A stretch of DNA of 33,070 bases from Kiritimatiellia bacterium. Its GTDB lineage: Bacteria; Verrucomicrobiota; Kiritimatiellia; SS1-B-03-39; UBA6053. The notes beneath the pieces were generated by a model that saw nothing but the letters and a program-made list of their open reading frames with translations, ran no database searches and was not told the DNA's origin. Positions 6,199 to 27,450 of this stretch are shown here, piece after piece (position 1 is the first letter of the stretch; each line of letters opens with the position of its first letter). The stretch lies in assembly GCA_029936175.1 (NCBI GenBank), contig JAPYUI010000020.1:4739-37808 (forward strand). Reading direction: 5' to 3'. Made by a program: the position numbers and the translations under genes.

Positions 6199-9100
6199 CT
6201 AGCGCAGGACCACGCTGGCGTCAAAATTCATCAGCAGGCTGATCATCGAGGTGGTTGCCGCGAGCTCGACCGGGTCCAGGTCCTCGCCGGGCTTGCGTAG
6301 GCCGACCCGGGTGAATTGCTTCGCCGCATCCGGGTTGCCTTGGAAATGTTTTCGCTGGTCATCCAGCATGTCGCGGAGAATCTTTCGCTGAACATCCGTG
6401 GGTTCCAGACTCGTCAAGCGGCGGAAGGCCTCCCGGATACACCGGTCCGGGTCGCTGGGGAAATCCTTCATCAGCCCTTCAGCGAGTACCCGCGCAGCTT
6501 CCACGAATTGCGGCCCGTTCAACAATACCAGGGCCTGGAGAGGAGAAGAGCCCGGCTCGCGCTTGACCGTGCAGGCGTCCCGCTTCACGGCATCCAGGGC
6601 CATCATCACCGGCGAGGGCCCGGTCAATTTCCAGTAGGTGTACACGCTTCGGCGGTACAGGTTTTCGTTCTTGTCGTGATTCATCGGCTTGAAGGATTCC
6701 TTCAAGTCGTAGGGCTTGGCCGGTGTGCCGCCGATTTTATGCACCAGCAGCCCGCTGGCCGCCAAGGCGTGATCCCGCAGCATCTCCGCGCTCAGGCGCA
6801 TCCTGGGCCCGCGCGCAAGCAGTACATTTTCGGGGTCCCTTCGAAAGGTCTCCGGGTTGGGGAGGGAACGCTGGCGATAGGTTGCCGAATGCACAATCAG
6901 GCGATGCAGGGCCTTCAGGTCCCAACCGGACGCGATGAAGCGATAGGCCAGCCAGTCGAGTAGCTCCGGGTGACTGGGGGGGCTTCCCTGGGAGCCAAAG
7001 TCCTCCGTGGTTTGAACCAGGCCCTGGCCGAAATGCATTTGCCAGTAGCGATTGACCGCGACCCGCGCGGTCAGCGGGTGCCCGGGATCGGTCAGCCATT
7101 GCGCGAGACCAAGGCGGTTGGCGGGATGATCCAAAGCACCCGATGGCAGCCAGGCGGGTGTGTGTGCATCCACCGCTTCACGTCGCTCGGCATAATGTCC
7201 CCGGTGAAGTACGTAGGTTTGGCGAGGCCTGGAACGTTCACGCATGACCATGATCTCGGTGAAGCTGTTCGCGTGCTGGTCCCGGGTGGCCCGTTTTGCC
7301 TGCAGGTGCTGGGCGGCCGCCTGCCCGGTGGTGCTGGCGGTCGCAAGATACCAGTCAAACAATTTCGGGTCGCGTGCATCAATGGCCCCCTGCAGGCTGG
7401 AGCCGTCGTGGAGATGACGTACTTCGAGTTCGCTCAGGCAGCGCCCGACGATCACCAGCTCATCGACCGCTCCCCGGGCAAAGCCCCGGTCCCGGAAGCG
7501 CTCACCCATGGCAAAGTGTTTTACTCCCCCGGCTGCGATTCCCTTGCTGAGTTGATCGTGAACCACCTCGCAGTCCGCTGCCCGGCCATTGACATACAGG
7601 GTAAGTCCGGCCGCCTCGCTCGACCCGTCGTAGGTCAGGGTGACGTGCTGCCAGGTGTTCAGGCCCAGCTTGTCCTTCGTGCGAATACTGATCGCATTCC
7701 CCGGCCAGAAGTGGATAAGCGAGGCACTCAACCGGCCCTCTTCCAGCAGGAGTTGGTAGCCCTGGCTGGCCGAGTCGGTCCAGGCGCGGGAACGATGAAA
7801 GATCACCGCGCGTTCCTTGTGCTCGGGTGTCCGCATCCACAGGGCGACCGAAAAGGCCTGGGCACGATTGAACGCCCCGGTTTCAATTTTAATGGCGTCG
7901 TCGCCGGTGAGCTCCAGGGCTCGGCCGTGCCTCCCCGGGATGCTGGTGTTCCGGTTGCTGGTGGAAGCGGCCTTTTTTTCGTTAGCGGCATTCCCGTGTT
8001 TGCCCACCTGTTCTTCATCAAAGGAGACCCGTGCGAGCAGACCGGGAATGTGCGCCGGGGGCAGGGGACCCTTCAGCCAGTCGGCAAAAGCGGGTTCGGC
8101 CTCTTTTCGCACCCGGGCCAAATCGGCTTTTGCGGCTTCGACTTCCGCATTGAGTTGATCGAGGCGTTTCCTCTGTGCATCGCTGGTCATCGCGAGGACG
8201 GGCGTGGGTACGGCCTGGGTGAAAAAGCTGTACAGGCCGGCTTCGTCGATGTTGTTGAAGTAGGCGAAGAATCGGTAATAGTCGCGGCTCGTAATGGGGT
8301 CGTACTTGTGGTCGTGGCAGCGCGCACATTCCAGGGTGAGTCCGAGAAAGGCGGTGCCAAAGGTGTGGGTACGGTCGGCTACGTATTCCACGCGGAATTC
8401 TTCCTCCACCGTGCCGCCCTCGACTTTCTGCTGGTGCAGCCTACAGAACGTGGTGGCGAGGATCTGCTCGTCGCTGGGGTCGGGCAGTAAATCCCCGGCC
8501 AGTTGCCAGGTAATGAATTCATCGTAGGCCTGGTTGCGGTTGAAGCTCCCGATAACCCAGTCACGCCAAGGCCAGACATAGCGGTTGTTGTCCCGCTGGA
8601 AGCCGTAGCTGTCCGCGTAGCGGGCGAGGTCGAGCCAGTCGGTCGTCATGCGCTCCCCGTACCGATCCGATCCGAGCAAGCGCTCGACCGTGGCTTCATA
8701 GGGTTCCTTAGCGTCGAGGTCACTCGCGCTCGGCGGCAGGCCGGTCAGGCCAAAGCTCGCCCGGCGGAGCAGGATGCGGCGATCGGCCTCGGCGGCCGGT
8801 TTAAGCCCCTCCCGCCGGAGGCGTTCCAATACGAAGCGGTCGATATCATTCCGGATCCAGGGATCCTCGATGGCCGGGGGGCGTATCTTCCGGGGAGCGA
8901 TATAGGCCCAGTGGCCCTCCCAACTCGCCCCCTGGGCGATCCAGGCCTTCAGGATCTCTTTCTCCGCCGGGCCCAGGCTCAGCTTGGACTCCGGTGGGGG
9001 CATCATTTCGTCCGGATCTGTTTCGAATATTCGGTGGACGATTTCACTCCGGGCCGGATCGCCCGGCTTGATCGCAAAAAGGTCGCTGTCTTTCAACCGG

Positions 9101-9303
9101 GCCTTGGCGGTCTCCTCCAGGTCCAGGCGGAGACCCGCCTTGCGTGCACCGCTGTCCGGGCCATGGCATAAAAAACACTTATCCGAGAGGATGGGGCGAA
9201 TGTCGCGATTAAACTGGATCTCAGCGGCCTGCGTGCCCGTACCCAGCAACAAGAGGAGTAAAAGGCGTACGGGCCGGGTTGGAGATGTGCGGAGCCTTGC
9301 CAT
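6199..9303 (-). CDS. Planctomycete-type cytochrome protein: PSCyt1 - DUF1549 - LamG-like - DUF1553
   Basis: 1034 residues. Residues 1-27 are a signal peptide with a run of seven leucines. A PSCyt1 domain follows, with haem-c motif CFLCH (43-47). DUF1549 spans about 150-357 ([20 protein letters not shown]) and contains a second CxxCH, CARCH (326-330). A helical linker (about 370-410) leads to a LamG/concanavalin-like insert (about 420-630, with FSVALWMRT and LTLYVNGR). DUF1553 occupies about 725-985 ([35 protein letters not shown]). Many relatives carry such a lectin-like insert. The protein is presumably exported and haem-bearing, working with the DUF1501 protein encoded 16 bases downstream. 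Such pairs are often suspected to act in polysaccharide or sugar oxidation, but substrates are unknown. It starts 36 bases after the cardiolipin synthase stop. Confidence 0.92.
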
Positions 9304-10934: not shown

Positions 10935-12878
10935 ATGATTGATTTTCAGCGGGTAAGCAAATTTTACGGAGACCAGGATGTTCTGGAGGATGCGTCCTTT
11001 GTCGTGAATCCTGGGGAACGGGTTGGAATCGTCGGTCCGAACGGGGCGGGGAAGAGCACCATTTTCGGCATGATCAACGGCCAGATCCAGCCCGACAAGG
11101 GTGAGGTACTCTTTCCGCGAAAGACGCGCTTTGGTCACTTGCGCCAGGAACTCCGCGCCGACGGGGTGGACCAGGTGCTGCTCAACTACGTGGTCGACGG
11201 GGTGCCCGAGTTGAAGGAGTTGCACGGGCAGATTGAAACCCTGGAAGCCGGACTGCTGGGCCTGGAGGGCACGTTCCGGGAGAAGGAACTCCAACGCATC
11301 GGTGCTTTGCAGGATGCCTTCGAACACGCGGGTGGTTATGACATTGAAGCCCGCGCCGCCGCGGCCTTGTGCGGCCTCGGCTTCCAGGATGCTGGCTTAC
11401 AGCGCCCGTTTAACGAATTCAGCGGTGGTTGGCAGATGCGCGCCGAGCTGGCGCGAACCCTGATCACGCGCCCGGATGTGCTCCTGCTCGACGAGCCTTC
11501 CAACTACCTCGACCTGCCTGCCGTGGAATGGCTGCAACGCTTCCTGCGTAACTTTACGGGCACCCTGTTACTGGTGTCGCACGATCGCTACCTCCTCGAC
11601 TCGCTTACCACCATCACCTTGGAGGTAATGATGGGGAAGGTTTCCCGTTACGCCGGAAACTACAGCCATTACCTGGTGGAAAGGGAAGGGCGCTACGCAC
11701 AGTTGTCCGCATCGGCCAAGAACCAGGCGCGTCGCCGTGAACAGATTGAGCGCTTCATCACCCGGTTCCGCGCCAAGAATACCAAGGCCACCCAGGTGCA
11801 GAGTCGAATGAAGATGCTGGACAAGATGGAGGAGATCCAGGTGCCGGCAACCTCGCCGGACCTGTCCCTGATCAAGATTCCCGATCCGCCTCACTGCGGA
11901 ACGACGGTGTTGCAGGTCGAGGGTATGAGCAAGAGCTACGACGGTTCCGAGTTTGTGCTGAAAGATGTTGATCTAGCTCTCCAGCGTGGGGACAAGGTCG
12001 CCCTGGTGGGCTACAACGGCATGGGCAAGACGACCTTGTTGCGTATCCTGGCGGGCGAATTGGAATATACGGAGGGTAAGCGGATCGTAGGACACAAGGT
12101 TGTGATCGGGTATCAATCCCAGGAATTCTCCGATACGATGCCCCCGGAAAAGACGGCCTATGACATCGTTCGGGCGGCCGCTCGGGATACCGACGACAAG
12201 CAGGTGCGAACGATCCTCGGCATGTTCGGCTTCAGTGGCGAGGCGGCAATCAAGCCTTGCAAGGTCTTGAGCGGCGGTGAAAAAATTCGCCTCGCGTTCG
12301 CCCGTATCTTTATCAATCCACCCAACCTGCTCGTGCTCGATGAACCGACCACGCACCTGGACATCAACGGGCGGCGCGCATTGGAAGAGGCGCTGACCCG
12401 TTATGCAGGGGCGGTCTGCCTGGTCAGCCACGATGTGACCTTCGTGCAGAAAACAGCCACCCACATCGTGGCGATGCAGCCTCCCGGGATTACCCGTTAC
12501 CACGGCAACTACAGCTATTACCGCGAAAAGGTCGCAGCTCAGGCTGAGGCCCCCTTGCGTACGAATGCCTCGAAAAGCGACGTAAACGGGAAAGATAAGA
12601 AGCAGCTGCGGAAGGAACGGGCGGAACAGCGCGAAACCTTGAAAAAGAAGACCCGTGGGCTGGAGAAAACCATCGTGAAGGCGGAGGCGCGCATCGAGGA
12701 GCTGGAAGCCGAGCAGTCCAGGGTTCTTGGGTATTTGTCGGCCCACGAACCGGGCACGGATTTCGAAGACCTGAACCGCCGCTTGAGCCTCATCCAGGGG
12801 ATGTTGGTCCAGGCCAATAAGGAATGGGATATCGCGGTGGACGAATTGGATTGCGCGAAGGCGGGCATGCAGGCATGA
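10935..12878 (+). CDS. ABC-F family ATPase (translation factor type, Uup/YheS-like)
   Basis: 647 residues with two fused ABC domains and no membrane segments. Domain 1 has Walker A GPNGAGKS (34-41), signature FSGGWQMR (about 163-170) and Walker B LLLDEPSNYLD (about 183-193). Domain 2 has GYNGMGKTT (about 359-367), LSGGEKIRL (about 445-453) and LVLDEPTTHLD (about 467-477). Between them lies the charged P-site-tRNA-interaction linker (about 240-300, RRREQIERFITRFR). A Lys/Glu-rich C-terminal coiled coil (about 550-645) resembles the Uup/ABCF3 type. ABC-F proteins act on ribosomes, relieving stalls or giving antibiotic protection, and do not transport. The start has GGGAA closely upstream. The stop overlaps the M36 protease start (ATGA), so the two are probably translated together. 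Confidence 0.9.
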   Translation: MIDFQRVSKFYGDQDVLEDASFVVNPGERVGIVGPNGAGKSTIFGMINGQIQPDKGEVLFPRKTRFGHLRQELRADGVDQVLLNYVVDGVPELKELHGQIETLEAGLLGLEGTFREKELQRIGALQDAFEHAGGYDIEARAAAALCGLGFQDAGLQRPFNEFSGGWQMRAELARTLITRPDVLLLDEPSNYLDLPAVEWLQRFLRNFTGTLLLVSHDRYLLDSLTTITLEVMMGKVSRYAGNYSHYLVEREGRYAQLSASAKNQARRREQIERFITRFRAKNTKATQVQSRMKMLDKMEEIQVPATSPDLSLIKIPDPPHCGTTVLQVEGMSKSYDGSEFVLKDVDLALQRGDKVALVGYNGMGKTTLLRILAGELEYTEGKRIVGHKVVIGYQSQEFSDTMPPEKTAYDIVRAAARDTDDKQVRTILGMFGFSGEAAIKPCKVLSGGEKIRLAFARIFINPPNLLVLDEPTTHLDINGRRALEEALTRYAGAVCLVSHDVTFVQKTATHIVAMQPPGITRYHGNYSYYREKVAAQAEAPLRTNASKSDVNGKDKKQLRKERAEQRETLKKKTRGLEKTIVKAEARIEELEAEQSRVLGYLSAHEPGTDFEDLNRRLSLIQGMLVQANKEWDIAVDELDCAKAGMQA

Positions 12879-15262
12879 AACACGGGGTGAGCACGGGCTT
12901 GCTGTGGTTGCTGGCTGCATCACTTTTTTCCGAGCCCCTGCCCATTTTTCTAAGCGGAGCATCAGACGACGACCCCGAACGCATCGCCCGGGATTACCTG
13001 AATGCGCAGGTGGACAACAAGCCCACCTTGCGGCTGCTCCGTCGATGGCGGGATGCGCACAATGGCCTCCACCATTTCATTTTTCAGCAGGAACTGCACC
13101 GGTTGCCGGTATTCGGCGATCACCTTTGCGTGCACGTGACACGTAGGGGACAGGTTGTCAGTTGCCATGGTGAACTGCGCCACCTGGAGAGTCTTCCGGA
13201 AGCCGGATGGACGGCTGCGCAGGCTCGGGGTTCCGTCCGGGCGGCGCTGGACTTTCCGGTGGGGGATGAGGTCGCTGCGGAGTTGATGGTTTTCTTCCCG
13301 GAGCACGAGGCGCCCTGCCTGGTGTGGAACATGCAGATCCATGCACCGGACGGCCGCGTCGCCCTGGATGTACATGTGGATGCCGCAAGCGGGAAGGTGA
13401 TCTGGCAGAACGACCTGGTCCGGCGCTGCACGCACCGTGTTTTTGCGCCGCCCCTGGAGTCGCCCGACCACGGCCTACAGACCCTCCTGCAACATACGCC
13501 CGATCCCGTCGCCTCGCCCTTTGGCTGGCACGATACCAATGGCGTTGCCGGACCGGAGTTCACCGATACGCGGGGCAACAACACCCAGGTGCAGGAAGAT
13601 GGGGACGCGAATAACATTGGCGGGCTTCGCCCGGACGGCGGACCTTCCCTGAGCTTCGATATTCCCTTCGATCCGTCCCTGGTGGTCAGCGGAAACCGGG
13701 ATGCCGCCATGGTCAACGTCTTTTTCTGGGCCAACTATCTTCACGATGTACTGTATCATTATGGCTTCGATGAGGCCTCGGGTAATTTCCAGGCCAATAA
13801 CTACGGTCATTCCGGAACGGCGGGTGATCCGGTCCTCCTGGATATCCAGGACGGGGCCTCCGTGAACAATGCGACCTTCACCGCCAGCTCGGATGGGATA
13901 CCCGGGCGGATGCAATTGCATATATGGATAAACGGTGCGGTTACGGTCACGGTTTCCGCTCCTGCCGCAATCGTGGGCCTTCTCCAGGGGAGCGGTGCCC
14001 AGTTCGGAGGCTCCATTCCCCCGGGCGGTCTCTCCCATGAGGTGGTCCTCGCGCGGGATGCGGCTGATCCTCCACTCAACTCCACGACCGATGCCTGCTC
14101 GGCCATTACCAATGTCACGGAGGTCACGGGAAAGATCGCACTGATCGATCGAGGCGACTGCCTGTTCACCGACAAGGTGAAGCGGGCGCAGGATGCCGGG
14201 GCGATTGCTGTTATCATCGCGAACCACGAGGGCGAGGGCCTGGTTCGGATGGCGGGATCGGATGCCACGATCGTGATTCCCTCGGTCTTTATCCGCCAAT
14301 CCGCCGGCGAGGTACTCAAGGCGCAGCTCGCGCTGGGGGAGACGATCGAGGTGACGATCAGCGGGAGTCCCGAACGGGATGCGGCCCTCGACAACGGGAT
14401 CATCGCCCACGAGTATGCCCATGGCCTCACCTCGCGATTGACCGGCGGGCCGGCGAATCCGAACTGCCTTTCCACGGTCAACCGCCAGAGCGTCGGCCTG
14501 TCGGAGGGCTGGAGTGACTATTTTGGCCTGGTGTTCACCCAGGAGCCCGGGGATGTACGTCAGACCCAACGTAGCGTCGGGGCCTATGTACTGGGCGACA
14601 TCACGGGGCCGGGGATTCGTTCCCTCCCCTATGCCGCAGACCTCTCGATCAACCCGCTTACCTTTAATGACCTCTTGAATGTAAGCGACTTTCACCGCAT
14701 TGGCGAAGTCTGGTGCCTGGCCTTGTGGGAACTGTATTGGGATTTTATTGACCGCTATGGGTACGACCCCGACTTGGTTCACGGACAGGGCGGCAACAAC
14801 CTTTGTCTCCAACTGGTGCTGGACGCACTGAAGCTGCAGCCCTGCAACCCCACCTTCACCGATGCCCGTGATGCGATCCTGCTGGCTGACCAGGTCAACC
14901 ATGCCAGCGCGTACCAGTGCCTCATCTGGCGGGCCTTTGGCCGGAGAGGACTCGGTCAACTGGCGAGTGCAGGCGCCCCCACGGCCACCGTGGTGAATGA
15001 AGATTTCTCCGTGCCCCTGGGATGCGAGGCGGATATTGATCTGAGCCTTCATTCGCCCACCGGCGTGCCCTTCCAGATGGATTGGCCCGCCGTGAGCGGT
15101 GCGGTGTACCAGGTGCAGCAGCGTTTCATGTTCGATTCCGGTGCCTGGGTCGATCTCCCGGATGGCCGGGTGACTGCGACCCTGCAAAACGTGGTATTCG
15201 ATCTGCCGACAACGGCACCCACGCAGCTTTATTACCGCGTCCAACTTAAGCTGGATCCCTGA
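12875..15262 (+). CDS. Secreted M36 (fungalysin-type) metalloprotease with PA domain insert
   Basis: 795 residues from the ATG at 12875, which overlaps the ABC-F stop as ATGA. An upstream in-frame ATG at 12824 lies inside the ABC-F gene and would spoil the signal peptide. Residues 1-20 look like a signal peptide. An FTP/PepSY-like propeptide region follows (about 30-180, with VWNMQIHAPDGRVALDVHVD). The peptidase core begins around NVFFWANYLHDVLYHYGFDE (281-300). A protease-associated domain is inserted at about 360-495 (KIALIDRGDCLFTDKVKRAQDAGA). The zinc site is HEYAH (512-516), with the third ligand Glu544 in SEGWSDYFGL. The C-terminal region is beta-rich. The family digests extracellular proteins such as elastin or collagen; a nutrient role is likely. 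There is no C-terminal sorting signal. Confidence 0.9.
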   Translation: MKHGVSTGLLWLLAASLFSEPLPIFLSGASDDDPERIARDYLNAQVDNKPTLRLLRRWRDAHNGLHHFIFQQELHRLPVFGDHLCVHVTRRGQVVSCHGELRHLESLPEAGWTAAQARGSVRAALDFPVGDEVAAELMVFFPEHEAPCLVWNMQIHAPDGRVALDVHVDAASGKVIWQNDLVRRCTHRVFAPPLESPDHGLQTLLQHTPDPVASPFGWHDTNGVAGPEFTDTRGNNTQVQEDGDANNIGGLRPDGGPSLSFDIPFDPSLVVSGNRDAAMVNVFFWANYLHDVLYHYGFDEASGNFQANNYGHSGTAGDPVLLDIQDGASVNNATFTASSDGIPGRMQLHIWINGAVTVTVSAPAAIVGLLQGSGAQFGGSIPPGGLSHEVVLARDAADPPLNSTTDACSAITNVTEVTGKIALIDRGDCLFTDKVKRAQDAGAIAVIIANHEGEGLVRMAGSDATIVIPSVFIRQSAGEVLKAQLALGETIEVTISGSPERDAALDNGIIAHEYAHGLTSRLTGGPANPNCLSTVNRQSVGLSEGWSDYFGLVFTQEPGDVRQTQRSVGAYVLGDITGPGIRSLPYAADLSINPLTFNDLLNVSDFHRIGEVWCLALWELYWDFIDRYGYDPDLVHGQGGNNLCLQLVLDALKLQPCNPTFTDARDAILLADQVNHASAYQCLIWRAFGRRGLGQLASAGAPTATVVNEDFSVPLGCEADIDLSLHSPTGVPFQMDWPAVSGAVYQVQQRFMFDSGAWVDLPDGRVTATLQNVVFDLPTTAPTQLYYRVQLKLDP

Positions 15263-19152: not shown

Positions 19153-22100
19153 ATGATGAATAAAATGCACGAAAAATACGAATGGTTGAAGCGGGTTCCC
19201 CTGCTCGCCCTGATCTCCCTGTTGAGCCTGGCCTTCGATGCCGGCCCGGTTTACGGACAGGATTCCGACGGGGATACGGTTGCGGACAGCGTTGACCTGG
19301 ATGACGATAACGACGGCATTCTCGACGTGGTCGAGAGGCCAAGTCCGGATGTGACCACCTGGATCAACCAGGTTGGCGGGATTACCGCCGTGGGAAACAC
19401 CCTGCATTTCAGTTCATCGGCCCCCTCCAGTTGGAATTCAACCCTGACCTCGCTCGACTTCAGTGCACTTGGCGTCAGCGGAACCTACACGGTATCTTTC
19501 ACCCCGGACCAGGGGAATATTCGAAACGTGATGATCGGCCTGAACAAGGCGGGCCAGAACTCGGGAACTAGTACGAGCTGGTCCAACATCGACCACGCCA
19601 TGTATTTGCGGTCAGATGGTGTTCTCCGGATTTATGAAAGTGGCTCAAACAAGCACAGTTCCAGTTATTCTGCTGGCGATCTCTTGACCATTGAAGTCAC
19701 GGGCAGCACCTTGAAATACAAACGGAATGGAAGCACCCTTCGCACGAAGACCATTACCTCCGGACAGGATTTCTATATCGACACCGCGTTCCCCGGTGGG
19801 GCACCGTCCAACTACACCATTTCCAATGTCCAGTTGGACTCCGGCGGCACGGCCGTCAGTGACACGGATGGTGATGGAATCGCCGACCACCTGGATACGG
19901 ATAGTGATGGGGACGGCGTTTCTGACCTGATCGAGAGCGGGCAGGCGCAGGGCGTTGTCGACACGGACAATGACGGCCGGCACGATGGCAGCGTGGATGC
20001 TTCGGGGGTGCCGAATGCTGCTTCCGGTGGCGTGATCCCGGTCGACAGTGACAATGACCAGCGCGCCGATGTGCTGGACCTGGACAGCGACAACGACGGG
20101 GTTCTCGACGCTGACGAAAGTTTTGACACCCGTATAATGACCTGGATCAACCAGGTCGGCGGCGTGACTGTGGCTGGAAACACCCTGAGCTTCGATGATG
20201 ATAACTGGTCGGGTGCCTGGAATTCGACCATCCATTCCCTTGACTTCAGCGCGCTCGGGGTCGCGGGCGGTTTTGAGTTCAGTTTCGTCTCAGAGATATC
20301 CCCGGTTTGGAGGGCGATGATTGGCCTGAATAAGGCCGGGAATAACTCCACGGCCAGTTACTCCGACATTGACCATGCGATCTACCTGAATAAGGGCAAG
20401 GTCCTCGTGTTTGAAAACGGGGCCAACCAGGGGAACTTTGGCAACTTCTCCGCGAATGATCGCTTTTCCATCACGGTCGATGGCGGCTCGCTCAAGTACA
20501 AGCGGAACGGCGTGACATTCCTGTCCCGCGCGGTGACTCCCGGGCTCGACTACTACGTCGACAGTTCCTTCCTGGATAGCGGTGATAACGTAAATTACAG
20601 CCTGTCCGATATCCGGGTCCGGCCTTACGACGGCATCAGGGACAGCGATGGCGACACGGTTGCCGACCGCTTGGACATCGACAGTGATGGCGACTCGATC
20701 ACGGACATGGCCGAAAGCGGCCAGGATTCCAGAACCTACGATACCAATACCGACGGGCGCCATGATGGTGGAGTCGATAATGATGGTGTACCGGTTGACG
20801 CGGCGGGCGGAAAGAGCCTGGTGGATAGCGATCTCGACCTGGTCTTCGACATCCTGGACTGGGACAGCGATAATGATGGTATCCTGGATAACATTGAGGG
20901 CCCGAGCAACCCGGACGTCCTGGCGTGGAAGAACCAGGCGGGTGGTCTCACGGCCAGTGGGAATAACCTGAACCTGGATTTCGGAACCACTTCATCCGGG
21001 TGGTCCTCCACGATTCACTCTGAAGACTTCAGTACCCTGGGAGTCGGGGGTGATTTTACGTTCAGCTTTACGGCAGAGAATCACCCATGTAACTACTTTT
21101 TCCTCGGGATCAACCAGGCGGGCAACAACAGCACCGCCAGTTACTCGGATATCGATCACGCGTTTTACCTGCGCAAGACGGGGTTTCGACTCTTCGAGAA
21201 TGGCTCGCAGGTTTTAAACGCTGGATCCTGGTCCGCCGGTGATCGCTTCAGCATCGTTCGGGAAGGTTCCCAGATTATATACAAGCGCAATGGCGCCGTG
21301 GTTCACACCTCCAGCGTGATCGGGACGGGAACAGACTACTATATTGACAATTCGATGCACAGTTCGGGTTCGGGTTTGCACACGATCTCCGACGTGGAGA
21401 TCGTGGGCGCATTTGGCCATCCGCGTGATTCGGATGGTGACGGTTACGCCGACTACATCGATACGGACAGCGATGAGGACACCATAAGCGACCTGATTGA
21501 GTCCGGCCAGGACTGGGAGGTGGTCGATGTTGATGAAGACGGTGTGCATGACAGCGGGGTGGATGAGTATGGGGTGCCCGTGGCTGCTGCGGGTGGGGTT
21601 GTCCCGGTTGACACCGATGCCGATGGCACCATCGATGTGCTGGATTTTGACAGTGATTCCGATGGCATTCCCGACCAGACCGAAGGCTATGCGGATCCGG
21701 ACAACGACGGCAAACCCAATTTCCAGGACTTGGATTCAGACGGCGATGGTATTCCGGATGCCCCGGAGGTCGGCGACTACGCCCAACTGTTCTATGTTCC
21801 GGTTGAAGATGAATTGGCCCGGACCGCCTTTGATCATTACGAATCCGGAAACGTGGACCTGGACCAATATGGAGTCATCTCCATTACCGCTACGGCCGAC
21901 GGCACGGTCCTGTATTACGACCAGTGGGAAGATGGCGGATATGACCTGGATATCACCACGCCGATTAATGTCTACAGCACGGGCAACCTCTCCGGCACCC
22001 AGATCTGGGGTGATGGAGATGACGCGAACGGAAAGCCACCTGGTTTCGCCAGTGATTTCATCAGCCTGGGCGACGTGATTCGCCTCGAGAATCTGGTACC

Positions 22101-25100
22101 CATCCCCCGGGATGCCAATGACCTTCGTTTCGATGGTGGTGACAAGTTTGCCGTGACGGAACCGGTTGCCGTGACGCGTGCATCCTGGAATGACGAGGCG
22201 AAAGCCCTGCTCGCCGGAGCCCTGGAGGTCTATGATACCAGTGCCTGGGGGGTGTCCTACTCGATCCCCCTGAGTGAACATTACAGCCACTCCGATCAGA
22301 TTTTTCAATACGTGGCACTAATGATCATGGCATCACAGGATAACACGGTCGTGAACATCGATGAAGACGCGGACGGATCCTCGACGGTGATTACGCTGGA
22401 TGAAGGGGAGTCCATCCTCGTTTCCGGCAATGTGTCGGGCTACAACAACGTGGTCGCTGGTGGCCAGATTAACGCGACGCACCCGGTACAGGTGGAAATG
22501 ATAACGGGTAGCACGTACAGTCGCTACCAGTCACGCTGGTACCACATCACCCCGACGGAAAACTGGAGCTGTGAGTACTTTAACCCGGTGGCTTCCCTTT
22601 CCGGCGACGATCGTTCAGACGTGTTCGTGTACAATCCGCATCCCTTTTCGATCACGGTCAAGTATGAACGCCTGGTGAACGGGAGCTCGAGTATTAACAC
22701 CTATTCGGTCGACCCGACGTCCACCCGGACGATCCCGATCAACAGTTTGAATACGGCCCAGCGATTCTACACCGAGAACGTTACGGATACCTTCTATGCT
22801 TTTGTAGCGGTGGATGCTGTCACCCGTGCCGGCACCCACGACTGGGGACTGGCCCTGGTGCCAAATACCAGCCTGAGTCCGGCCTTGCAGGTCGGTTGGG
22901 GACCCGGCCGCGATGCCTTGTCAACCACATCGCCCAACGGTAATTACAACCCCGTCTGGGTGACGGCGGTCGCCGACACCACGGTGTACATTGACTTCAA
23001 CGGTGACGGAGGGCCCATCTCAAATGGTTGCGGAACATGGGATACATCGGTCAGCGTAGCCCGGCTTGAATCGGTTCGGATCTTTGATCCGGACGGTGAT
23101 CAAACGCAGATGAAGCTCCAGACCTGCGACGGCACTCCGATCACGGCGGCCTGGGGCCAGGACACCTCGGTTGCGCCGGGGGCCCAACCCGCGCTGGACA
23201 TGGGGACGACGGTTCCGCCCCTGCCCCTGTTTGCATCCTCGAAATCGGTGGCCCATGCGCCGGGTGGTGACCTGAATGGCGACGGTGAGTTCAATCCCGG
23301 GGATACCATCCGGTACACGATTGAAGTTTCCAACCCGGCCTATGTCCTGACCCGTCAGCTTCAGTTGTCTGACACGCTGCCTCCTGCCGGAGCAACCTAT
23401 GTGGCAGGCAGTACCTTCCGCGGCGGGATATCCATCCCGGATGCGGGGAGTACGCCGTTTCCCCTGGATGAAGGGAATTATGCTATTGGCGTGCTCGCTA
23501 GCCAGGAAGCGACGCATTTCCAATACGATATGGTGCTGGATTATCCATGGACGGTGCCGGTGGTCACGCTCGTCAGTGCGGCCACGGTGTCGGATGCCCA
23601 GAATACCTTTACGCCCAGTGTCAGTGTGCCCGTGGTCTTGAGCCCCGAGCTCACGGTTACCGTGACCACCACCACGCCGGAAGTTTGTATTGGCGATACC
23701 GCGCAGTTCTCGGTGACGGTGGAGAACACGGGCGATACCATCCTGAGTAACATCGGGAGTTCCTCGGCCCTTGCGAGCGGCTGCGACCAGGTCATTGGCA
23801 CCTTGAATATCGGTGAATCGGCAAGCTATTCCTGCAGCAAGGCCAACGTTAGCGCGGCTTTCCTGAATACGGTTGTCGCGGCTGGTGATGTGCCGGGCGG
23901 CCAGACGACCACGGGGATCGGCAGCGTCCAGGTCACCCTGCAGCCTCCAGCCACTATTTCCGGTACCGTGGTGAAGGACTTGAATGCCAATGGCCAGGTG
24001 GACGGTGGGGAAGGGGGTCTCTCCGGGGCCACGGTTTCCCTTAGCGGTCCCTCCGGAAGCTTCCAGGTGACCACAGGCTCCAGCGGCAACTTCACCTTTA
24101 CCGACCTGAAGCAGGGAACCTACACCCTGACCCGGGCAAATCCGACGGACTGGATTTCCTCGGCGGCCCTGCCGGGGACGGTGGGTGCGACGGTTGTATC
24201 CGTTGACGAAATCTCGGTGGTTGTGGCTCCGGACGATACGAGTAGCAACAACCGCTTCCTCTCCTATGTCCCCAGTACCATCTCCGGTACCGTATACGAT
24301 GAGCTGGTCATCGACGGGGTTGTGGGTGCCGGAGAGGGCCCCTTGGCAGGAGCCATTATTACGCTCACCGCTCCGGGCTTCAGTGAGCAGGTCACGACGA
24401 CGGGTGACGGCACCTACGAGTTCGACGAGCTGGAAGCGGATACCTACGTGATCAACATCATTCCGCCGGCGAATCACGGTTCTGGGAGTGCGGTTGCGGG
24501 GACCATTGGTGCCGTTGTCGATGCGGAGGACCAGATTACGGTTGTCCTGCCCCAAAGCTCGGATAGTGAAGACAACAACTTTTTCACCTACGAGCAGGCC
24601 AGTATCTCCGGGGTCATCTATGAAGACGGCGGCGCGGACGGGGTCGAGGAAGCCAGTGCCCCGCCCATTCTCGGCGTGGTCCTCAGCCTCTATACCTGCG
24701 ATGACGTTTTCATCACCAGTACCGCGAGTGCGGCGGATGGCTCCTATGCCTTCGGTGGGCTGGATCCCCGGGTTAACTACAGCATTCGTTACTCGAATGT
24801 GCCGGCCAACTTTGAAATCTCCCCGGTGAACGCATCCGATATCGAGACCGACAGCGATGCCTACGAAGATGGCCTGGTGGATGACGATGAATCCTCGACA
24901 ATCGTGTACGGGCAGTGCGAGACCTCCGCTGTATCCATCGTGAACGGCAGTTTTGAAGATCCCGTGGATCCGAACGGGGTCCGCACGACCTTCGGTGGCG
25001 GTTCATTGCACGCGTATTATATCTACGAGGATTACATTAATGGTTGGGAAACCGATGCATCCGATGACCTCGGTGAAATCTGGGACTCCGGTTTTGCCGG

Positions 25101-27450
25101 GGTACCTTCCCATGATGGTGATCAGCATGCGGAAATCAACGCAACCCGGTTTGCGGCCCTGTTCCAGGATGTCAACACCTCACCCGGGGCTCGCATGACC
25201 TGGTCCTTTGCACACCGCGGTCGCAAGGGGGTCGATGCCATTCGCCTGGAAATCGGTCCACCCGGGGGCCCTTACGTCTCCGAGGGAACCTACGCCGACG
25301 GAAAGCACAATTGGGGTGTCTACACCGGGGACTATAACGTGCCCGAGGGGCAGACCGTGACGCGTTTCCGCTATGTCGCGATTTCCACGGCCCGTGGCCA
25401 CATCTCCATCGGTAACTTCCTGGATGCGATTTCCTTTGAGGAGTGTATCCAGGTGGTTGATGGAACGGTGGCGGAAAATGACCCGACCTGTTTCGTATTG
25501 GCCGTTGGTGAAAACCGCGACACGATCGACCTGGGCATGTACGAGGTGCTTCCGCAGATCTCGGTAAATGACCAGGAAGTCCTGGAAAGTGACGGTGATA
25601 CCAAGGTCTGGGTTTGCCTCGACAAGGCAGGTGAACTTCCGGTGCAGGTGGACTATGTAACGATCAGTGGTTCTGCAGTGAGCGGATCGGATTACACGAC
25701 TACCACCGGGACGCTGGTCTTCCCGGCCTTTGAAACCTGCATGCCGATCACCATCCCGATCATTAACGATCCCACTATGGAATCAACCGAGCAATTCAGC
25801 GTCCAGATCAGCAATCCCCAGAATGTGGCGGTCGTCGATGATACCGGTGTGGTGACCATCTATGATGACGATGTACCGGCATTCAGCATATCGGGTACGG
25901 TCTACGCGGATAACGACACCAGCAACGATAACGTTATCGGTAACGATGATACGGGTATCGCGGGTGTGACCCTCGACCTCTATAAGGATGCCAACGCCGA
26001 CCAGGTGGCGCAGTTGAGCGAGTTTGTCACCACGACCACGACCGCCGGTGATGGCACGTATACTTTCCCCAACCGCGACTATGGCATGTACTGGGTCGTG
26101 GAAACCGACCTGCCCGGCTACGTGAGCGAGACGGATTCAGATGGGGTTAATGACAACGTGGTCGCAGGGCTCTACTCCAGCAACGCAACCAATGTCGACT
26201 TCCTGGATGACGATGTCCCGTTCAACGCGATCAGCATTAATGACGTCATGGTCGACGAAGATGCGGGCACGGTTACCCTGACGGTCAGCATCAACCGGGT
26301 GACCGCCGATGCCGTCAGCTTCGATTATGTCAGCGAGGGCATCCTGGCGACGGATGGCCTGGACTACCTGGGTCATGCCGGGACGGTCAACGTGGCCGGC
26401 AACGAGACGGAGCATCTGCTGGTGTTCACCGTCCTCGACGACTTGGAAGACGAATCGGATGAAACCTTCCGGGTCGTGTTGAGCAGTCCGGTCGGGGCCC
26501 TGATCCTGGATGACACCGGCCTGGTCACCATTCTCGATGATGACGAGGCTCCCGTGTTTGTCGACCTCAGTGGTACGGTGTACGGCGATTCCGACCTGGA
26601 TGACAATGATATCATCGATACAAACGATTACCCAATCGGAGGGGCCCTGATCTCCCTGTGGACCGACCCGAACGGAAACGGAGACGAATCCGATGATGGG
26701 GTGCTGGTGGAGCAGGTGATTACCGCCTCCGATGGCATGTATTCTTTCATTTCCCTGCAGTCGGGTAACTACGTGATCATCGAAACGGATCCCACGGGTT
26801 ACACAAGCGACTGGGATGCACAGGGCACGAATGACAACGTGATTGCCGGAAACTATACCGTGACGACGGGGAACCTGGACTTCCTGGATGATGATAGCGG
26901 TTGTGTTGACACGATCAATACCTTCGACACCTATGCATTCGATATTGAAGCCGCCTGCGAGTTCAGTGGATTCAGCCTCGCGACCGATGCGACGACGGTG
27001 AACGGCCACAACTACTACACGGGTGACGTGACCGCTCCGCTGGGTGCCCTGGGCGAACCGATCACCATGCAGCGCCTGACGGGAGAAGTATTGTTGATCG
27101 ATGCGAGTATCGATACGGGTGGTGCGAACAACCTGATCGTCCAGGGTGTATTGGACTTCACGGTCTTCAAGGGTGACCCGAACTCGGCTTTCCCGGGTGA
27201 GCTGGCGGGCAATCTCCTGGTGACCTACGAGGATCTGAGCACGGATGTCTTCTACGTCTACTACGAGCAGGTCTGTGGTCTCGACTACAATGGCGTGGCC
27301 GGCGGCGTGCTCGTGCTGGGTTGTAACAACTGGCCGAACCAGACCCAGAGCAAAGCCGCCTTTGAAAACAGTGGTGGAGTGGCCCGCGCCTTCACCCTGT
27401 TGGCGAGCATTCCGCCGATCTGTGGCGAGGGCGGTGGGTCCAACCAGTAA
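19153..27450 (+). CDS. Giant secreted mosaic surface protein (TSP3-like, DUF11-like, SdrD-B-like, Calx-beta-like domains)
   Basis: 2765 residues. A signal peptide covers about 1-36, ending near VYGQ; the first of several nearby ATGs is used and no start has a strong ribosome site. Order of modules: three 261-residue repeats (70-852), each a lectin-like beta domain plus an Asp-rich TSP3-like calcium segment; a large module (about 874-1355, from AQLFYVPVEDELART to TTVPPLPLF) of the kind that precedes DUF11 domains in bacterial adhesins and recalls IgGFc-binding domains; a DUF11-like domain (about 1360-1490); a second CARDB/DUF11-like domain (1499-1597); three SdrD-B-like domains (from about 1600, 1708 and 1816); a DUF642-like NGSFEDP domain (about 1928-2099); Calx-beta (2135-2242); SdrD-B (2245-2355); Calx-beta (2359-2465); SdrD-B (2470-2582); and a unique Cys-containing C-terminus. 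No LPXTG, PEP-CTERM, Por-type tag or membrane helix ends it. Adhesion or matrix function is inferred. Confidence 0.85.
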   Translation: MMNKMHEKYEWLKRVPLLALISLLSLAFDAGPVYGQDSDGDTVADSVDLDDDNDGILDVVERPSPDVTTWINQVGGITAVGNTLHFSSSAPSSWNSTLTSLDFSALGVSGTYTVSFTPDQGNIRNVMIGLNKAGQNSGTSTSWSNIDHAMYLRSDGVLRIYESGSNKHSSSYSAGDLLTIEVTGSTLKYKRNGSTLRTKTITSGQDFYIDTAFPGGAPSNYTISNVQLDSGGTAVSDTDGDGIADHLDTDSDGDGVSDLIESGQAQGVVDTDNDGRHDGSVDASGVPNAASGGVIPVDSDNDQRADVLDLDSDNDGVLDADESFDTRIMTWINQVGGVTVAGNTLSFDDDNWSGAWNSTIHSLDFSALGVAGGFEFSFVSEISPVWRAMIGLNKAGNNSTASYSDIDHAIYLNKGKVLVFENGANQGNFGNFSANDRFSITVDGGSLKYKRNGVTFLSRAVTPGLDYYVDSSFLDSGDNVNYSLSDIRVRPYDGIRDSDGDTVADRLDIDSDGDSITDMAESGQDSRTYDTNTDGRHDGGVDNDGVPVDAAGGKSLVDSDLDLVFDILDWDSDNDGILDNIEGPSNPDVLAWKNQAGGLTASGNNLNLDFGTTSSGWSSTIHSEDFSTLGVGGDFTFSFTAENHPCNYFFLGINQAGNNSTASYSDIDHAFYLRKTGFRLFENGSQVLNAGSWSAGDRFSIVREGSQIIYKRNGAVVHTSSVIGTGTDYYIDNSMHSSGSGLHTISDVEIVGAFGHPRDSDGDGYADYIDTDSDEDTISDLIESGQDWEVVDVDEDGVHDSGVDEYGVPVAAAGGVVPVDTDADGTIDVLDFDSDSDGIPDQTEGYADPDNDGKPNFQDLDSDGDGIPDAPEVGDYAQLFYVPVEDELARTAFDHYESGNVDLDQYGVISITATADGTVLYYDQWEDGGYDLDITTPINVYSTGNLSGTQIWGDGDDANGKPPGFASDFISLGDVIRLENLVPIPRDANDLRFDGGDKFAVTEPVAVTRASWNDEAKALLAGALEVYDTSAWGVSYSIPLSEHYSHSDQIFQYVALMIMASQDNTVVNIDEDADGSSTVITLDEGESILVSGNVSGYNNVVAGGQINATHPVQVEMITGSTYSRYQSRWYHITPTENWSCEYFNPVASLSGDDRSDVFVYNPHPFSITVKYERLVNGSSSINTYSVDPTSTRTIPINSLNTAQRFYTENVTDTFYAFVAVDAVTRAGTHDWGLALVPNTSLSPALQVGWGPGRDALSTTSPNGNYNPVWVTAVADTTVYIDFNGDGGPISNGCGTWDTSVSVARLESVRIFDPDGDQTQMKLQTCDGTPITAAWGQDTSVAPGAQPALDMGTTVPPLPLFASSKSVAHAPGGDLNGDGEFNPGDTIRYTIEVSNPAYVLTRQLQLSDTLPPAGATYVAGSTFRGGISIPDAGSTPFPLDEGNYAIGVLASQEATHFQYDMVLDYPWTVPVVTLVSAATVSDAQNTFTPSVSVPVVLSPELTVTVTTTTPEVCIGDTAQFSVTVENTGDTILSNIGSSSALASGCDQVIGTLNIGESASYSCSKANVSAAFLNTVVAAGDVPGGQTTTGIGSVQVTLQPPATISGTVVKDLNANGQVDGGEGGLSGATVSLSGPSGSFQVTTGSSGNFTFTDLKQGTYTLTRANPTDWISSAALPGTVGATVVSVDEISVVVAPDDTSSNNRFLSYVPSTISGTVYDELVIDGVVGAGEGPLAGAIITLTAPGFSEQVTTTGDGTYEFDELEADTYVINIIPPANHGSGSAVAGTIGAVVDAEDQITVVLPQSSDSEDNNFFTYEQASISGVIYEDGGADGVEEASAPPILGVVLSLYTCDDVFITSTASAADGSYAFGGLDPRVNYSIRYSNVPANFEISPVNASDIETDSDAYEDGLVDDDESSTIVYGQCETSAVSIVNGSFEDPVDPNGVRTTFGGGSLHAYYIYEDYINGWETDASDDLGEIWDSGFAGVPSHDGDQHAEINATRFAALFQDVNTSPGARMTWSFAHRGRKGVDAIRLEIGPPGGPYVSEGTYADGKHNWGVYTGDYNVPEGQTVTRFRYVAISTARGHISIGNFLDAISFEECIQVVDGTVAENDPTCFVLAVGENRDTIDLGMYEVLPQISVNDQEVLESDGDTKVWVCLDKAGELPVQVDYVTISGSAVSGSDYTTTTGTLVFPAFETCMPITIPIINDPTMESTEQFSVQISNPQNVAVVDDTGVVTIYDDDVPAFSISGTVYADNDTSNDNVIGNDDTGIAGVTLDLYKDANADQVAQLSEFVTTTTTAGDGTYTFPNRDYGMYWVVETDLPGYVSETDSDGVNDNVVAGLYSSNATNVDFLDDDVPFNAISINDVMVDEDAGTVTLTVSINRVTADAVSFDYVSEGILATDGLDYLGHAGTVNVAGNETEHLLVFTVLDDLEDESDETFRVVLSSPVGALILDDTGLVTILDDDEAPVFVDLSGTVYGDSDLDDNDIIDTNDYPIGGALISLWTDPNGNGDESDDGVLVEQVITASDGMYSFISLQSGNYVIIETDPTGYTSDWDAQGTNDNVIAGNYTVTTGNLDFLDDDSGCVDTINTFDTYAFDIEAACEFSGFSLATDATTVNGHNYYTGDVTAPLGALGEPITMQRLTGEVLLIDASIDTGGANNLIVQGVLDFTVFKGDPNSAFPGELAGNLLVTYEDLSTDVFYVYYEQVCGLDYNGVAGGVLVLGCNNWPNQTQSKAAFENSGGVARAFTLLASIPPICGEGGGSNQ
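19360..21708 (+). repeat. Three tandem 783-base (261-residue) protein-coding repeats
   Basis: The landmark Trp of the WINQVGG / WINQVGG / WKNQAGG motif falls at residues 70, 331 and 592, an identical period of 261 residues each time. Each unit has GNTL or GNNL, a STxxSxDFSxLGV strand, GLNKAG or GINQAG, DIDHAxYL, KYKRNG or IYKRNG, a xDxYxD segment, and then an Asp-rich TSP3-like stretch with ESGQ, a DGxHD/DGRHD motif and GVP...GG. Sequences have diverged considerably although the length has been kept. A further half unit of only the calcium-binding type follows (about 853-873). Units: 19360-20142, 20143-20925, 20926-21708. Confidence 0.9.

Follow-up and report, generated by a model that had tools for sequence, protein, structure and literature searches.

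The three-unit array and its gene

The window (the whole stretch of 33,070 nucleotides analyzed here) encodes a giant, putatively secreted protein of 2,765 residues (positions 19153 to 27450, +) that holds three units, each made up of a beta domain of about 168 residues and an Asp-rich spacer of about 91 residues. Residues 1 to 35 (19153 to 19257, +) were identified by eye as a likely signal peptide, and this N-terminus is nearly identical in two paralogues. An Asp-rich lead-in segment with two Asp loops follows (residues 36 to 61; 19258 to 19335, +). Beta domain 1 (residues 64 to 231; 19342 to 19845, +) contains Trp70, the landmark of the original prediction, and the conserved Trp94, while beta domains 2 (residues 323 to 491; 20119 to 20625, +) and 3 (residues 584 to 752; 20902 to 21408, +) contain Trp331 and Trp592; all three are predicted to have a concanavalin (ConA) fold. 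Five DxDxDG-like loops recur in fixed register in the thrombospondin type 3 (TSP3)-like spacers, at residues 237, 250, 270, 298, and 311 in spacer 1 (residues 237 to 320; 19861 to 20112, +) and 497, 510, 530, 558, and 571 in spacer 2 (residues 497 to 580; 20641 to 20892, +). Spacer 3 (residues 759 to 870; 21427 to 21762, +) has extra loops, seven in all, and the offsets of the first to the fifth loop are 0, 13, 33, 61, and 74 in all three spacers.

Downstream of the array, a stalk-type region (about residues 1380 to 2500; 23290 to 26652, +; outer limits approximate) matched DUF11, SdrD_B (five stretches), and Calx-beta (two stretches) in a Pfam scan, and a SpaA match also lies downstream of the array. 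The region of about 490 residues that separates the array from the DUF11 part (residues 880 to 1370; about 21790 to 23262) matched no Pfam family except DUF11 at its end; it may have an IgGFc-binding-like look. No anchor motif was identified in the 2,765-residue protein, and its surface location is therefore an assumption. Elsewhere in the window, a PSCyt1/PSCyt2/PSD1 protein (6199 to 9303, −) carries a Laminin_G_3 insert (E = 1.9e-19), a ConA-fold domain of a different family, and a fungalysin M36 metallopeptidase with a PA domain and a propeptide is encoded upstream of the array (12824 to 15262, +).

The original prediction had placed the three repeats at 19360 to 21708 with Trp residues at 70, 331, and 592, and both the coordinates and the Trp spacing of 261 and 261 residues were correct. 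Its further claim of exactly 261 residues with no length change holds for the chosen Trp but not for other landmarks, which range from 260 to 262: NIDHA/DIDHA at residues 145, 405, and 666 (periods of 260 and 261), YKRNG at 189, 449, and 710 (260 and 261), ESGQ at 260, 520, and 782 (260 and 262), and a DNDG motif at 51, 312, and 572 (261 and 260). A profile-based domain start gives periods of 259 and 263 residues. Several small indels in the beta domain nearly cancel. Moreover, Trp70 is not the conserved Trp of the family, as its column is W in only 19 of 49 members, while the Trp94 column is W in 47 of 49.

The units were also said to differ widely. This is so in ungapped comparison (15, 30, and 30% identity), but when aligned, the beta domain of unit 1 is 45 to 46% identical to those of units 2 and 3 over about 176 residues (BLASTP E = 1e-49 and 5e-44 in single comparisons), and the spacers are 56 to 60% identical among the three units. 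The likeness among the units is far beyond chance, and because the beta domains align by themselves, alignment through the Asp-rich parts only is excluded.

Fold and phage relatives of the beta domain

An AlphaFold2 model of domain 1, built from 49 aligned sequences, had a pLDDT of 88 and a pTM of 0.85 and comprised 14 strands, all beta except for short helical turns. A Foldseek search of the PDB returned mostly ConA-type proteins that act on or bind glycans (sialidase BT_1020, VvEG16 glucanase, the Emp46p carbohydrate recognition domain, and CBM66). VIA-align placed SPRY domains at the top of its list (Z scores of 14.2 to about 13), with VvEG16 at 13.2, ERGIC-53 at 12.7, and CBM66 at 12.4; 759 of 971 aligned chains had a Z score of at least 8, and among the rows listed, 145 to 164 of 180 residues were covered. 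The beta domain is confidently predicted to be a concanavalin-type two-sheet sandwich, in keeping with the lectin-type domain originally proposed. In a model of all three units (mean pLDDT of 60.8, pTM of 0.45), the strand pattern was repeated in each of the three domains, in line with the common fold that the prediction had anticipated.

In Pfam (newest models from 2025) and NCBIfam (June 2026), no family matched more than 2 of the 49 aligned members at an E value of up to 0.1, so that no known Pfam or NCBIfam domain could be assigned to the beta domain. Laminin_G_3 (PF13385) matched 2 of the 49 members only (best E = 0.011), below its curated cut-off. Pfam SPRY (PF00622) was absent among the 17 families matched by any of the 49 members at the same threshold. 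A 2021 survey (PMC7824862) describes jumbo phages whose virion parts carry SPRY and Laminin G3 domains, with SPRY in tail fibers, and a second 2021 paper (PMC8195603) states that SPRY originated in phage tail proteins. Since its 49 aligned members lack a Pfam SPRY match, we do not file the family as SPRY, although its fold fits this phage-tail picture.

Several phage proteins matched by sequence profile or predicted structure. PHROG 19691, a virion structural protein, matched units 1 to 3 with E values of 9.1e-12, 7.7e-9, and 2e-6, the matches spanning about 115 positions of the 623-position profile. Among predicted structures in BFVD, the best match was the phi13:1 structural protein (E = 1.4e-11), with a phage protein annotated as ash2-like in second place. 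In a separate search, the domain matched a protein encoded by a Manatee Spring phage (E = 2e-9). Family profile A8, which left out one degenerate copy from locus L033, near-identical copies (>90%), and L070 (a duplicate of L077), matched residues 107 to 240 of PDB chain 26gp_Q (E = 1.2e-6). Structural proteins from Pseudomonas phages, KPP25 among them, show 100% identity over this stretch (6 of the 8 matched records). The remaining A8 matches in the PDB, including pyocin L1 (E = 0.016), were weak and taken as chance, and a PDB sequence search with one unit gave chance rows only. A phage structural protein carrying the domain, together with a weak collagen-repeat match, was detected by MS/MS. 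A literature search found no paper on the 26gp structure and, among open-licence papers, none naming the beta domain. By these profile comparisons, the beta domain belongs to an unnamed family that shares homology with phage virion proteins, including one of solved structure.

Distribution, arrays, and spacers

A pattern scan of a genome collection yielded 20 loci, 13 in Bacteroidota, 2 each in Bacillota and Omnitrophota, and 1 each in Absconditabacterales, Chlorobiota, and a mussel gill symbiont; three scans of viral contigs, which partly overlapped, yielded 4, 5, and 5. In a set of 97 relatives, the source genome was the single one with the module. In a sample of the phylum, profile A1 matched 4 of 387 genomes and profile A2 matched 6 of 387, counts that include the source genome and a doubtful genome, G270, whose match (E = 0.0048) was judged to be chance. 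A search of the phylum to which an Omnitrophota genome belongs matched 9 of 285 genomes. Little or nothing was found with profile A1 in genome contigs and viral contigs or with domain 1 in plasmids, and a nucleotide search of plasmids with the phage stretch gave seven records with matches of 33 to 47 bases, taken as chance. The module invoked in the original prediction, with DIDYAIYL- and YKRNG-type motifs, is present in other surface proteins, and profile and pattern searches recovered it and its beta-plus-spacer arrays beyond the source genome, as anticipated.

The arrays differ in their spacers. L027 and L029, from another family of the same phylum, have a period of 211 to 221 residues except for one interval of 175, and their spacers contain two Asp loops and, in most cases, a WE motif. 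Four proteins from the Omnitrophota phylum (L157, L158, L159, and L081) have periods of 248 to 257 with fn3 spacers, and a Vicingus protein has a period of 247 to 248 and Ig-like spacers, which matched Ig_3 at E = 3.3e-5 although none of the stretches passed by itself. Three further proteins (L073, L080, and L088) carry adjacent copies with 4 to 6 residues between them. Irregular arrays also occur: one interval in L030 measures 241 residues, and the spacing is highly variable in L031 and L033. Regular length is common in arrays of the beta domain whatever the spacer (TSP3-like, fn3, or Ig-like). L031 is an open frame of 8,885 residues (contig C3 of genome G234), with at least 12 domain copies in the 6,499 residues fetched. 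The copies from Absconditabacterales have 9 and 6 TGA codons in frame, in accord with a genetic code that reads TGA as a sense codon.

This regularity bears on the earlier idea of a rigid rod made of beta domain and TSP3-like calcium segment. Arrays with fn3 or Ig-like spacers are as regular (252, SD 0.5; 248, SD 0.4), so that constant length needs no rod, and the period of exactly 261 was rejected as evidence for one both for this reason and because the landmarks vary from 260 to 262. The rod itself was unsupported: the spacer blocks of the three-unit model mostly had a pLDDT of 32 to 47, in a model built without calcium from an alignment that supplied no related rows for the spacers. With such values and the low pTM, the relative orientation of the domains is undefined. 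Stiffening of the spacers by calcium would be compatible with a calcium-free model. The TSP3-like character of the spacers was weakly supported: they have Asp loops and all three matched TSP_3 (PF02412) at an E value of up to 10, but the best match (E = 2.6e-4) scored 21.1 bits against a curated cut-off of 25. Matches of the spacer profile in the PDB (BamM, E = 0.28; FrpC, E = 0.39) were too weak to be used. The spacer is also present in a further genome of the phylum (G275), there without a detected beta domain.

Partner domains were scanned in 21 non-window proteins. DUF6443 or RHS repeats occurred in 9 of the 21 and fn3 in 7. Two are phage tail proteins: in Clostridium acidisoli, a prophage tail protein that also carries an S74 chaperone, and in Sporomusa ovata, a tail-tip J protein. 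A single protein, L081 of Omnitrophota, is fused to a glycosidase (GH5, E = 2.2e-33), which is followed by domain-fn3-domain-fn3-domain; no carbohydrate-active enzyme was matched in the window protein. These phage and GH5 layouts, few as they are, suggest binding at surfaces or to polysaccharides. RHS-type proteins with the beta domain end in Tox-URI2 (L082, Tenacibaculum) or a Tle1-like domain (L158).

Proposed function and origin

We lean towards the view that the window protein is secreted, forms a very long component of the surface or matrix, and serves as a three-domain glycan-binding adhesin with calcium-type spacers. At its N-terminal end, three concanavalin-fold binding domains would precede a stalk built from Ig-like SdrD_B and Calx-beta domains. 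Each beta domain would bind glycan, three copies on one chain would provide avidity, and the spacers would hold the domains apart and probably stiffen once calcium is bound. Secretion, the glycan ligand, calcium binding, and avidity are all what we infer for this protein.

Known SPRY members bind proteins and peptides. The beta domains might likewise be SPRY-like modules that grip another protein, whether on a partner cell, on a phage, or in the cell's own matrix, which we consider unlikely. The rank of SPRY in the VIA-align list, the ash2-like phage protein in BFVD, and the SPRY domains of jumbo-phage tail fibers described in PMC7824862 speak for such modules, but glycan-type ConA proteins are within 1 to 2 Z units, and gaps of this size are not decisive. 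None of the 49 members matches Pfam SPRY (E up to 0.1), and the GH5 fusion with fn3 linkers has a layout like that of a carbohydrate-binding module (CBM).

That the domains are spacers only, stable beta modules that lengthen the stalk and bind no ligand themselves, seems distinctly improbable. The remainder of the protein consists of stalk-type repeats and the copies are regular in length, as this would have it, but spacing poorly explains one or few copies in phage tail proteins and behind GH5. Residues W94, G129, I146, D147, E162, Y189, and D210 are also kept across phyla in the family alignment, although a buried core may partly explain this. Glycan binding by an adhesin remains our preferred reading, and the beta domain is probably a general-purpose gripping module.

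The copies are old. The source genome holds two further single units, on contigs C12 (in a 412-residue protein) and C391 (in a protein cut by the contig end), and the N-termini of these proteins and the window protein are nearly alike. In a tree of 72 domains, made by a quick method with SH-aLRT as its only support and leaving out a false segment of L028 (residues 1196 to 1376) and the L031 copies, the five copies of the source genome formed one clade (SH-aLRT 100). Recent tandem duplication, with equal length due to youth alone, is very improbable and was rejected on this tree: although the spacers are still so similar, unit 1 shares 70% identity with the C12 unit, as against 46% with unit 2 (BLASTP), and clusters with the C12 and C391 units to the exclusion of units 2 and 3 (SH-aLRT 99). 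The copies thus predate the split between these paralogues, and the earlier view that the duplication was not recent was borne out. In L029 and L030, from a second family of the same phylum, units at the same position tend to pair (support of 84 to 97 for three pairs), pointing to old, position-bound units. The two paralogues have the likely signal peptide and one unit in common with the window protein; the C12 protein stops soon after its unit, and the C391 contig stops inside its unit, where the repeat perhaps broke the assembly.

The domain family, without a name in Pfam or NCBIfam, occurs in phage virion and bacterial surface proteins of several phyla, and the solved phage homologue (26gp chain Q) is usable as a template for it. 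If the domain binds glycans, the family would offer a module set with which to learn what phages and environmental bacteria attach to, and its varied spacers would be a natural experiment on the tuning of lectin spacing. A doubtful but broader possibility is an uncurated prokaryotic SPRY-like lectin family, moving among phage tails, bacterial adhesins, and enzymes on lineage-specific spacers, within the ConA-fold phage-tail pool proposed as the source of eukaryotic SPRY.

Compared with known systems, the window protein has only SdrD_B domains in common with the SdrD MSCRAMM, and it scored 54.9 bits against the NCBIfam model of that adhesin, below the cut-off of 2,500. Thrombospondin type 3 repeats likewise have Asp loops, and the window spacer has two loop pairs 13 residues apart, but it differs in that its middle loops are 20 and 28 residues apart and it lacks cysteines. 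The structural protein of Cellulophaga phages phi13:1 and phiST (PHROG 19691) has a homologous domain by sequence profile and predicted structure; it differs in being a virion protein in which the domain occurs once, ahead of a weak collagen-repeat match. The KPP25-type structural protein of Pseudomonas phages has a homologous domain too, but as a single distant copy in a virion protein. SPRY/B30.2 is the closest fold by VIA-align, yet the listed structural alignments show identities of 6 to 14%. ConA-type CBMs and lectins (CBM66, Emp46p/ERGIC-53, and Laminin_G_3) have the same fold, and one family member has the GH5-fn3 layout.
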